DNA of 64,000 nucleotides. Origin: an uncultured bacterium (GTDB lineage Bacteria; Verrucomicrobiota; Lentisphaeria; Victivallales; UBA1829). Both the position numbers and the translations under genes were made by a program. The number at the start of each line of letters is the position of its first letter. Position 1 is the first letter of the stretch. Below the pieces are notes generated by a model, which worked only from the letters and a program-made list of their open reading frames with translations, did not search any database and was not told the origin of the DNA. The stretch is from assembly GCA_949297765.1 (NCBI GenBank), contig CASFTV010000027.1, positions 1 through 64,000 on the forward strand, given 5' to 3'. This document shows, piece by piece, positions 17,641-55,183 of the stretch.

Positions 17641-17673
17641 TTTCAGTGGATTGGAATAATGGGAGTGCGGCTT

Positions 17674-17764
17674 GGATTTCGTGCTTTGCACGACCAGCGT
17701 TTCGCCGCTGGACCGCGACAAGGACGGAGTCCTTGACCCGGGAAAATGCGACTGCATTTTCCCG
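17674..17764 (-). repeat. Four-hairpin repeat element, copy 1
   Basis: A 91-bp unit, 83/91 identical to 53008-53098. It holds four successive hairpins: CGTGC/GCACG, CCAGCG/CGCTGG, CAAGGAC/GTCCTTG, and a 10-bp stem GGGAAAATGC/GCATTTTCCC. On the minus strand it begins 8 nt after the stop of the acetyltransferase gene. It falls between the ends of two convergent units (the V-ATPase operon and this gene). Confidence 0.85.
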
Positions 17765-17772
17765 TTCCGGAG

Positions 17773-33551: not shown

Positions 33552-34022
33552 TTACCATCTGTAATGGGCAAACGCCTTGTTGGCCTGCGCCATTTTATGT
33601 GTATCGTCTTTCTTCTTGATCGAAGCGCCCTGATTGTCGAATGCGTCGAGCAGTTCGCTGGCAAGGGCTTCTGTCATGGATTTTCCTTTTTTCGCCTGGG
33701 AATAGGTCGTGATCCAGCGCATCGCGAGCGCGACCTGGCGCTCCGCAGGAACTTCGATCGGAACCTGATATGTGGCTCCGCCGACTCGACGGCTCTTCAC
33801 TTCCAGTTTCGGCTTGATGTTCTCGACCGCCTGAATGAAAACCTCCAGCGGCTCCATCTCTTTCTTTTTGGCTTTGAGCATGTCGAACGCGCCGTAGACG
33901 ATGCTCTGGGCAACAGATTTCTTGCCGTTGCGCATGATCGTGTTGATCAGGCGGGCAACAAGTTCACTGTTATACTTGACATCCGGCGTCAGTTCTCTTT
34001 TCGTTATCTTGCGTCTTCTCAT
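33552..34022 (-). CDS. rpsG: 30S ribosomal protein S7
   Basis: Assembly-initiating protein of the 30S head, and in E. coli the repressor of the str operon. The 156 residues begin [39 protein letters not shown] and include [14 protein letters not shown]. Co-transcribed with rpsL and fusA. Confidence 0.97.
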
Positions 34023-51926: not shown

Positions 51927-52271
51927 TTATTCCACCGTGATTTTGTGGACTCTGGCGCTGTCGGCTTTCGGCAGGTTCAGGGTCAGAACGCCGTCCTGGG
52001 TCTTCGCCGTGATCTTTTCAACGTCGATCCCGTCGGAGAGCTGGAATTCGCGTTTGAAGACGACCATCTGTCCGTCTCTGCGGAGCGAGCTGGCGGCCTT
52101 CATCGTCATGATCCGGTCCTTGACCTCGATCTCGACCGTTTTGCTGTTGGCGCCGGGGACCTCGAACCACATTGTGACGCCGTCCTCGCCATCCAGAATA
52201 TCCACCAGCGGCATCAGGACAAGAGCCTCATGTTCCGCTCCGGTTTCCACTTTGACTGTATTTTCGCTCAT
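51927..52271 (-). CDS. Small heat-shock protein (Hsp20/alpha-crystallin), second of pair
   Basis: ATP-independent holdase that binds unfolding proteins. It is 114 residues, nearly all alpha-crystallin domain: LMPLVDILDGEDGVTMWFEVPGANSKTVEIEVKDRIMTMKA ... FKREFQLSDGIDVEKITAKTQDGVLTLNLPKAD, with the conserved GVL motif. There is no C-terminal IXI beyond VHKITVE. The start at 52271 has GAGGAGAT upstream. It is 43 bp after the first hsp20 gene, same operon. Confidence 0.95.
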   Translation of the reverse strand: MSENTVKVETGAEHEALVLMPLVDILDGEDGVTMWFEVPGANSKTVEIEVKDRIMTMKAASSLRRDGQMVVFKREFQLSDGIDVEKITAKTQDGVLTLNLPKADSARVHKITVE

Positions 52272-52314: not shown

Positions 52315-52773
52315 TTACTGGACGCTGACAACATGGGAAGCGGGTTTCACTTCGCCTTCCCGCGGCATTGTGATTGTCAGAACGCCGTCGGTGCATTTTG
52401 CCTTCGACTCGGCACCTTTGACCTTCACCGGAAGTTTGACCGTCTCTTCGTAGCTTTCGAAAGAGCGCTCACGCCGGATGTAGTGCTTGCCCTCTGCCGG
52501 TTCGACCGTATCGGAGCGTTTCGCCTTCACGGTCAGGTAGTCGCCGAGCACCTCGACGCTGACATCGGAAGCCTTGCATCCCGGAACCGCAAGCCGCGCC
52601 GTAACGTTCTCCCGGCCAACCTCAACTTCCAGGCGTCTGTGATGCGGTGTATTCAGAAATTCCGGTGCAAATTCGCTCATCGGGCCGAACATTTCATTGA
52701 GCAGCTCGTCAAATCCGTAAAGAGTCGGCTGATAGCGGTTTCCTTTTCTCTGCCATTTTGTCATGTGATGCAT
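52315..52773 (-). CDS. Small heat-shock protein (Hsp20/alpha-crystallin), first of pair
   Basis: A 152-residue Hsp20. Residues 1-45 form a variable N-terminal arm (WQRKGNRYQPTLYGFDELLNEMFG). The alpha-crystallin domain follows (RLEVEVGRENVTARLAVPGCKASDVSVEVLGDYLTVKA ... YIRRERSFESYEETVKLPVKVKG ... CTDGVLTITMPRE). The AGGAGG ribosome site fits the first ATG (52773). Two different Hsp20 proteins in one operon are common for hetero-oligomeric holdases. Upstream, a -24/-12 element and paired repeats point to sigma-54 control. Confidence 0.95.
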   Translation of the reverse strand: MHHMTKWQRKGNRYQPTLYGFDELLNEMFGPMSEFAPEFLNTPHHRRLEVEVGRENVTARLAVPGCKASDVSVEVLGDYLTVKAKRSDTVEPAEGKHYIRRERSFESYEETVKLPVKVKGAESKAKCTDGVLTITMPREGEVKPASHVVSVQ

Positions 52774-52869
52774 ATCGAACCTCCTGTTTTATGTTTGTTC
52801 TTGTTTTTGTGTTTGTGTTTATTTTTTTATTGGCTGTTTCGCTTTTCCAGGTCGCACACTTTTCGATAG

Positions 52870-52885
52870 AGCAGATCGCGTGCCA
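52870..52885 (-). promoter_or_regulatory. Candidate sigma-54 (-24/-12) promoter of the Hsp20 operon
   Basis: On the minus strand 52885-52870 reads TGGCACGCGATCTGCT, matching the sigma-54 consensus TGGCACG-N4-TTGCW at all but one of the specified bases, with the invariant GG and GC exactly ten bases apart. The start site would be near 52858, about 85 bp before the first hsp20 codon. No good sigma-70 promoter is seen in 52774-52960. Confidence 0.6.
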
Positions 52886-52925
52886 AAACTTTTTCCCGCT
52901 GCAAAGAGGGAAAATTTTCGGGAAA

Positions 52926-52978
52926 TTGGGACAAAATGGCGCAGATTTTATTTTTTAAAGTTGGGTCAAAATGGCGCA
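52926..52978 (-). promoter_or_regulatory. Paired 18-bp direct repeats, candidate activator sites
   Basis: TTGGGACAAAATGGCGCA (52926-52943) and TTGGGTCAAAATGGCGCA (52961-52978) differ at one base and are 35 bp apart. They would lie at about -68 to -85 and -103 to -120 from the sigma-54-type start, the usual range of enhancer-binding-protein sites. Confidence 0.65.
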
Positions 52979-53007
52979 AAAAAATGTCAAAGGAATGGAA
53001 TGGCGGG

Positions 53008-53098
53008 GGATTTCGTGCTCCGCACGACCAGCGTTTCGCCGCTGGACCGCGACAAGGACAGAGTCCTTGACCCGGAAAAATGCCGATGCATTTTTCCG
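53008..53098 (-). repeat. Four-hairpin repeat element, copy 2
   Basis: Matches 17674-17764 at 83 of 91 positions, with the same four hairpins. On the minus strand it begins 7 nt after the stop of the HTH gene. The 4th stem has an A-T pair where copy 1 has G-C, a compensatory change. Confidence 0.85.
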
Positions 53099-53105
53099 TA
53101 ACGGA

Positions 53106-53672: not shown

Positions 53673-53701
53673 TTGACTTCAGGGAAAAAATGTTGTATAC
53701 T
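53673..53701 (+). promoter_or_regulatory. Promoter of the pseudopilin pair (TTGACT-17-TATACT)
   Basis: TTGACT (53673-53678), 17 bp, TATACT (53696-53701), 45 bp before the ATG at 53747; one of the best sigma-70 matches in the window. Confidence 0.7.
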
Positions 53702-53746
53702 CTTTCACAGGAACAGAAAACTGCGAAAAAGAAGGAGTGTTTCGCA

Positions 53747-54427
53747 ATGAAAAGAAGAGATTATACGCTGGTGGAAATCCTGATGGTGGTCGGAATCATC
53801 GCGATTCTGGTCGGATTGGCGATTCCGGTCCTGAACAGCGCCCGCTCAAGCGCAAGACTCAACAAGGCTTCCGCCGAATGCAACGCGATCGCTCTTGCCA
53901 TCAAGAATTTTGAATCGGAATACGGCCAGATGCCGAACCCGATGGCAACATCGGACGGATCGGCCGCCCCGTCTGCCACAAGCGGCTTCACCGGAACCGT
54001 CGCCCTGACGGGAAATGACGTCAAAAAGGAAAGCGATGTCGGAAGCACCTCGGATTACTACAAGTTCTTCACCATGCTGACGATGTACGATCCGAGCGAC
54101 CATACGCAAAAAATCACATCGGGCCACAAAAACAATGTCAAGAAAATGATTTTCCTGGATGCGCCCCCGTCCTATGCGGAGGGAAAGACCTATCTGGATC
54201 CGTGGGGAAAACCCTATACGGTTCTGTACCGGGTGGACGGAGAATCCAGCATGGAGTTCTCCCTGTATGCGGGGTCTTCCACGGTAAACAATCGGAAAAT
54301 CAAACTTCTGACGCCCGTTGCGGTCTATACAGGAGAAGGTCTTCCAGGCAATCTCACATCGACCGCTCTCCAGGACGCCACGCGCTATGCGACCTCCTGG
54401 GGCGGAGTCATCACAAAACCGGAATAA
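53747..54427 (+). CDS. Type II secretion-like pseudopilin
   Basis: A 226-residue protein with an N-terminal prepilin signal: short basic leader MKRRD, then YTLVEILMVVGIIAILVGLAIPVLN, with the conserved Glu at +5 of the mature protein. The residue before the predicted cleavage is Asp, not the usual Gly, and +1 is Tyr. The rest has the GspG-like layout, an alpha spine followed by a globular part with LDPWGKPYTVLYRVDG. It probably assembles in, or is exported by, a pilus-like system at the envelope. The start has GAAGGAG upstream. Operon with the next pseudopilin. Confidence 0.88.
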   Translation: MKRRDYTLVEILMVVGIIAILVGLAIPVLNSARSSARLNKASAECNAIALAIKNFESEYGQMPNPMATSDGSAAPSATSGFTGTVALTGNDVKKESDVGSTSDYYKFFTMLTMYDPSDHTQKITSGHKNNVKKMIFLDAPPSYAEGKTYLDPWGKPYTVLYRVDGESSMEFSLYAGSSTVNNRKIKLLTPVAVYTGEGLPGNLTSTALQDATRYATSWGGVITKPE

Positions 54428-54448: not shown

Positions 54449-55183
54449 ATGAAAAAACATCCTTTCACTCTGACGGAACTCCTCGTTGTAATTTCCATCA
54501 TTGCCATTCTGGCGGGTCTGATGCTGCCGGCGCTGAACCGCTCCCGGATCAGTGCGCTGGCAACCGCCTGTTCCAGCAATCTGAAGCAGGTCGGAGCCTC
54601 CTTCACCCTGTTTGCCAATGACAATGAGGACAAGCTCCCGCCGGCGGATTTCGGCGGAACGATCGGCACCATCGGAACACAGCTGACCACGGAAGACGGA
54701 CTCCTCCAGACAACGGGGAACACCCGTCCGTGGTACGGGGAACTGGCACGGAAGAAATATCTGGACAAGGCTCCCTTCGCCGATGCCCGGAAAACCGACA
54801 GAACCGTTGTGAACTGTCCGGTCCTTTCCGGAAACAATCCCGGAGCCTTCAATGCCTACGGTGTTCCGAAAGGAACTGCCGCCTATGGAACGCTGGTCGG
54901 ATCCGGCATTTACTACCGCATCCGGACGGAAATGGATTCCTCCTTTGCCCTGGCGGCAGACTCCGCATATAAAGGAGACGTCAAAAAAGAGTGTTACGTT
55001 CTCGGAGAAGAAGAGGAGTCTTCCTCCGACTACACGGCAGCTCTCCGGCACAATTTCCGCGGCAACTTCCTGATGGCCGACGGCCGCGTCGAGGGGATGG
55101 ATAAATCCAAGGCGGAAGCAACGTTCAAATACAAAAACTCTTCCTCCGACAAGCAGCGTTATGAATATACGGAAGAGGAGTAA
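54449..55183 (+). CDS. Pseudopilin with C-terminal H-X9-DG motif
   Basis: A 244-residue prepilin-like protein: MKKHP, then FTLTELLVVISIIAILAGLMLPALN with Glu+5 and Pro (not Gly) at -1. Near the C terminus RHNFRGNFLMADGRVEG gives His, nine residues, Asp-Gly, the H-X9-DG motif of a family expanded in Lentisphaerae, Planctomycetes and Verrucomicrobia. Its function is unknown; some related proteins are thought to be surface displayed. It follows the first pseudopilin by 21 bp. Confidence 0.9.
   Translation: MKKHPFTLTELLVVISIIAILAGLMLPALNRSRISALATACSSNLKQVGASFTLFANDNEDKLPPADFGGTIGTIGTQLTTEDGLLQTTGNTRPWYGELARKKYLDKAPFADARKTDRTVVNCPVLSGNNPGAFNAYGVPKGTAAYGTLVGSGIYYRIRTEMDSSFALAADSAYKGDVKKECYVLGEEEESSSDYTAALRHNFRGNFLMADGRVEGMDKSKAEATFKYKNSSSDKQRYEYTEEE

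Follow-up and report, generated by a model that had tools for sequence, protein, structure and literature searches.

Textbook control of bacterial heat-shock genes relies on sigma-32, on HrcA and CIRCE or on similar repressors. A sigma-54 promoter is known at a small heat-shock gene, Escherichia coli ibpB, where it is secondary to sigma-32. The enhancer-binding protein (EBP) NtrC acts at glnA and ntrBC through paired 17-bp palindromes upstream of sigma-54 promoters, and also represses its own sigma-70 promoter. For heat-shock genes, PMC9109919 (citing Ueki and Inouye 2002) describes the Myxococcus xanthus HsfBA system, in which an NtrC-like response regulator directly activates lonD. In Chlamydia trachomatis, the CtcB/CtcC system (AtoS/AtoC) and a sigma-54 promoter on hrcA-grpE have been reported (PMC7482065, PMC8762339). 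Furthermore, dnaK, groES/EL, grpE, dnaJ and ibpA are enriched for predicted sigma-54 promoters in Bacteroidota and Planctomycetota and, in some classes, so are Hsp90 and ATP-dependent protease genes, according to PMC12316311. A study of PVC regulators reports that Lentisphaerae, Verrucomicrobia and Planctomycetes lack HrcA and that AtoC is conserved throughout the superphylum (PMC4989314), so that chaperone control in these three groups has been an open question.

The locus analysed here is an hsp20 operon on the minus strand of a 64-kb window, which is the whole stretch of DNA under study. It encodes two Hsp20 family small heat-shock proteins, the first of 152 aa (52315-52773; Pfam HSP20, E 9.7e-17) and the second of 114 aa (51927-52271; E 1.1e-13), whose gene starts 43 bp past the first. 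The initial annotation had placed a sigma-54-type element with GG-N10-GC spacing upstream of the operon, and we found both its position (52885-52870, minus strand) and its spacing to be correct. The element, TGGCACGCGATCTGCT, is close to TGGCAC-N5-TTGCW with the -24 GG and the -12 GC 10 bp apart, and predicts a transcript start near 52859 on the minus strand. It is the sole match to a relaxed -24/-12 consensus in the window and has no mismatches. Nonetheless, with one mismatch allowed, about 2.2 such matches are expected by chance per 64 kb and the match alone is therefore weak, insignificant evidence. The same expectation speaks for one alternative, namely that the match and the repeats described below are coincidental and that an ordinary sigma-70 promoter drives hsp20.

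Two near-identical 18-bp repeats lie further upstream, and the coordinates (52926-52943 and 52961-52978) and 35-bp start-to-start distance given in the initial annotation are exact. The annotation had called them direct repeats at an enhancer position; upstream sites of the EBP type they appear to be, but as putative dyad operators and not as plain direct repeats. Each contains an imperfect 17-bp palindrome, TGNGNCA-N3-TGNCNCA, whose inverted halves are 3 bp apart, and Fis-type HTH dimers, that of NtrC among them, recognise sites of this form. The palindromes are thus of the kind bound by dimeric EBPs, and binding is predicted at both. The proximal putative operator (TGGGACA-AAA-TGGCGCA, 52927-52943) is centred at about -76 from the predicted start and the distal one (TGGGTCA-AAA-TGGCGCA, 52962-52978) at about -111, 35 bp from the first; they score 18.8 and 17.7, respectively, with a position weight matrix whose null distribution has its 99% point at 9.9. 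The palindrome pattern matches twice in the window, both times at these repeats, against 0.07 matches expected, and the window holds no further copy of the 18-bp repeat at up to three mismatches (0.30 expected).

Two copies of a dispersed, roughly 100-bp element made of successive hairpins are present on the minus strand, at 52998-53105 and at about 17650-17770, and share long identical stretches. The first copy stops some 20 bp short of the distal operator, on its upstream side, and its stretch 53003-53078 folds much more stably than shuffled sequences (z -4.4). Beyond the hsp20 promoter region, two adjoining proteins with prepilin-type N-termini are encoded on the plus strand at 53690-54427 and 54449-55183.

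In the 4.2-Mb genome the exact 18-mer is confined to the hsp20 promoter, and we rejected it as a genome-wide motif, its three-mismatch matches being no commoner than those of the control. Two of these matches, at clpB and at a histidine kinase gene, led to the palindrome, which occurs eight times in the genome versus three for a reversed-pattern control. Two of the eight are the hsp20 sites and one each is found at clpB, at a zinc-ribbon gene preceding htpG, at an orphan gene and at the kinase gene. The other two, on contigs C25 and C44, are inside unrelated coding regions with no -24/-12 element nearby, and were taken as chance.

For the sigma-54 elements themselves, the genome was scanned with TGGCA-N6-YTGCT and the sites were checked one by one; most of the 25 matches look like chance. 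At hsp20, clpB, the orphan gene and the zinc ribbon-htpG pair, a good -24/-12 element separates the palindrome from the gene, and dnaK likewise has a good element together with a palindrome carrying one mismatch. The association of the upstream motif with -24/-12 sites, for which the initial annotation had proposed a scan, is accordingly found once the motif is read as a palindrome, both across this genome and across the family. By contrast, the palindrome (up to two mismatches, within 260 bp upstream) is absent at the other sigma-54 promoters, namely those of glnB, of C3:110975 and of two sites in the rtc region, which are a useful internal control.

The gene order extends the target list. 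Downstream of clpB are grpE and dnaJ, and groES starts some 0.6 kb past the part of dnaK covered by the match, hence only a short way beyond the dnaK end; groEL normally follows groES, and GroEL was not located in this genome. We infer from this order that each chaperone gene set forms one transcript. DnaK, GroES, ClpB, GrpE, DnaJ, HtpG and the two Hsp20 proteins, which are nearly all main protein-folding chaperones of this bacterium, appear, on the predicted sites, to be under one promoter plan. The orphan gene (L046:9948-10634; contig C3, 179947-180633) lies at a contig end and carries a good -24/-12 element as well as two palindromes; its 228-aa product matches no family and its predicted structure has a pLDDT of 35.

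Next we compared 36 genomes of the family from 10 genera, a set in which close relatives are included so that the counts are not independent. Upstream of dnaK, the palindrome (up to one mismatch) and the -24/-12 element are present together in 27 of 27 genomes, and upstream of clpB in 30 of 30. At hsp20, 13 of 16 genes are preceded by an equivalent -24/-12 element and 12 of the 16 genomes have both elements, the exceptions being genus g7 (G010-G012), whose best hsp20 match has neither, and G002, which has the -24/-12 element without a good palindrome. Genus g7 keeps both elements at dnaK and clpB despite their absence at hsp20 (L020, L022, L023). The 35-bp pair of palindromes recurs at hsp20 in G033, G007 and G006, and in G001 with a weaker second site; other spacings, of 25-26 and 46-47 bp, differ from it by roughly one turn of the helix. 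Site positions, spacings and sequences differ between genomes while the promoter plan persists. In simulated sequences with the same dinucleotide make-up, both features fall in one region with a probability of about 0.0003 (about 0.03%). The two together are found again in front of orthologous chaperone genes in each of the ten genera, which contradicts a coincidental -24/-12 match and chance repeats in front of an ordinary sigma-70 promoter and leaves that explanation hardly credible.

We then asked which protein would act at these sites. The genome has one match to rpoN (E 9.4e-61) and, among its matches to Sigma54_activat, only three full EBPs. The first is RtcR (L004), which scores above the curated cut-off and lies beside rtcA; the second is a NifA-like protein with a GAF domain (L002), below the NifA cut-off. 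The third, on contig C8, is a 451-aa response regulator with the order receiver, Sigma54_activat AAA+ and Fis-type HTH, in which the GAFTGA motif, Walker A, Walker B and the receiver aspartate are intact, as in NtrC-type EBPs. Its gene follows that of a soluble PAS-HisKA-HATPase kinase, and the palindrome overlaps the start of this kinase-EBP operon. AtoS and AtoC are the nearest named models, with 496 of 714 bits for the regulator (NF008469) and 225 of 646 bits for the kinase (NF008468). Because both scores are well below the equivalog cut-offs, we describe the pair as AtoSC-like and do not file it as AtoSC. The sigma-54 factor and the AAA+ activator on which the initial annotation had made its proposal depend are thus both encoded in the genome.

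It could be argued that the palindromes are enhancers for the NifA-like protein or for RtcR, since all three EBPs have a sigma-54 interaction domain and the target set of the NifA-like protein is not fixed by experiment. We consider this very unlikely. RtcR exceeds its curated cut-off and has rtcA as a neighbour, and the likely nitrogen targets of the NifA-like protein (glnB and C3:110975) have no palindrome. The C8 operon is the sole one of the three EBP loci known to have the palindrome at its own promoter, where it is kept in most of the family. With RtcR and the NifA-like protein unlikely controllers of chaperones, the AtoC-like EBP is left as the candidate, and sigma-54-dependent control of the chaperone promoters by the C8 regulator is, on the combined sequence evidence, very probable. 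As a separate observation, contig C13 has two near-identical minus-strand sigma-54 promoters, at 34014 and 35270 (L049), beside an rtcA-like gene and the RtcR regulator, and this RNA-repair locus is predicted to be under its own EBP.

The kinase-EBP pair occurs in nearly every genome of the family. A kinase ortholog at E <= 1e-89 is present in 32 of 36 genomes and a partial one in G028, and the EBP adjoins the kinase in 30 of 30 loci examined. A clear kinase ortholog was not found in G002, G003 and G025, which are incomplete assemblies (completeness 78, 56 and 77, respectively); G002 and G003 retain the dnaK and clpB sites.

The operon may also control itself. A palindrome with at most one mismatch is found upstream of the kinase gene in 23 of 29 cases, in many genomes directly 3′ of a TATATT or TATAGT box with a TTGACT-like -35 element about 17 bp before it, although in the genome of the window the -10 box is less clear. 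Because a dimer bound just downstream of a sigma-70 promoter would block the polymerase, this arrangement implies putative autorepression of the kinase-EBP operon at its own sigma-70 promoter, and NtrC blocks sigma-70 polymerase at its own gene in the same way. In several genomes (L077, L078, L083) a second, weaker palindrome follows the first at a distance of about 37 bp, close to the kinase start codon, suggesting a possible two-site autorepression module. Site layout and self-repression plan would thus be those of NtrC, with a different half-site and with chaperone genes as targets.

Based on the protein families and the target list, we hypothesize that proteotoxic or heat stress would activate the soluble PAS kinase, which would in turn phosphorylate the C8 regulator. 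Regulator dimers would then bind the 17-bp TGNGNCA-N3-TGNCNCA palindromes and oligomerise across paired sites and, by the mechanism of the family, their ATP hydrolysis would drive open-complex formation by sigma-54 RNA polymerase at the -24/-12 element. Besides hsp20, the regulator would activate dnaK-groES, clpB-grpE-dnaJ and the zinc ribbon-htpG operon, and through the palindrome that immediately follows the -10 box it would repress its own sigma-70 promoter. The activator-driven stress circuit suggested in the initial annotation is therefore supported by the sites, by rpoN and by the activator, but its predicted scope is wider than the hsp20 operon to which it had been assigned.

The stress signal is the part of this scheme on which another explanation bears. 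The same sites and regulator could respond neither to heat nor to misfolded protein but to, for instance, a metabolic, metal or envelope cue, with the chaperones merely co-induced. The nearest models, AtoS/AtoC and ZraS/ZraR (all below equivalog cut-offs), belong to systems that sense signals of this type, and the ligand of the sensor PAS domain is unspecified. However, the targets found are nearly all cytosolic chaperones, no transporter or metabolic gene is among the palindrome-bearing promoters, and the kinase shows no obvious transmembrane segment.

The dedicated heat-shock regulators also appear to be missing, which likewise argues against a signal unrelated to protein damage. HrcA was found in none of the 36 family genomes, whereas 7 of 14 control genomes yielded it in the same search. 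None of the 36 reaches the TIGR02392 cut-off for RpoH, the best matches scoring about half of it, with a model that is proteobacterial and that a divergent RpoH may escape. The promoter type is shared with E. coli ibpB, but here with no RpoH-type factor at cut-off. As the initial annotation had noted for the window, CIRCE is lacking: an exact copy is present in no family locus, versus 5 of 80 named dnaK loci of other bacteria among the matches listed. On the other side, a second sigma-70-family protein is encoded at C3:38998; it could also serve stress, and this counts against our main interpretation. On balance we regard a different signal as unlikely, and consider it likely that the chaperone regulon of this Victivallales-like lineage has the C8 two-component EBP as its master activator, the stress signal included.

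The 80 named dnaK loci, a broad sample of other groups among the matches listed and not one of nearest relatives, were used as an out-group control and also indicate how far the promoter plan may extend. Among these listed loci, both features are present in a Victivallales MAG, a Lentisphaerae MAG, two MAGs labelled Verrucomicrobia, Pedosphaera and a Verrucomicrobiales MAG, and weakly in a Poribacteria record; six other listed loci have the -24/-12 match only. The top two named DnaK matches, among the matches listed, are the Victivallales and Lentisphaerae MAGs, which makes a Victivallales-like bacterium the most likely source of the window. A broader hypothesis is that sigma-54 with an AtoC-like activator is the ancestral master heat-shock system on the Lentisphaerota/Verrucomicrobiota side of the PVC superphylum, replacing sigma-32/HrcA, with the PAS kinase sensing proteotoxic stress directly. 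We put this forward tentatively and lean somewhat against it; were it true, the sigma-54 promoter of the chlamydial hrcA-grpE operon would be a relic.

The chlamydial case is similar in that a member of the PVC superphylum combines an activator of the AtoC type and a heat-shock operon bearing a sigma-54 promoter. It differs in that CtcC has no DNA-binding domain, whereas the EBP described here keeps its Fis-type HTH and has predicted operators. Chlamydial hrcA-grpE also has an additional sigma-66 promoter and HrcA repression, and heat lowers rpoN, while HrcA was not found here. HsfBA shares an NtrC-type two-component activator at a heat-shock gene, predicted here from sequence. HsfB is however a hybrid kinase, as opposed to a simple soluble PAS kinase with no Pfam receiver domain, and the known heat-shock target of HsfBA is one protease gene, its others being secondary-metabolite and pilus genes, whereas core chaperones are the predicted targets here. 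The accessible text of PMC12316311 names no regulator or operator and does not mention Lentisphaerae; here a candidate regulator, an operator and autoregulation are assigned.

Taken together, sigma-54 at single heat-shock genes is known, but a whole core regulon with an assigned regulator and operator appears to be new; a limited literature search found no published regulator and operator for a whole sigma-54 chaperone regulon. With a candidate regulator, an operator and a target list named, the question of chaperone control in these bacteria becomes directly testable. Sigma-54 systems are all-or-none and ATP-driven, while the release of sigma-32 or HrcA control is graded, and the heat-shock response of this lineage should therefore differ in shape from that of bacteria relying on sigma-32 or HrcA.
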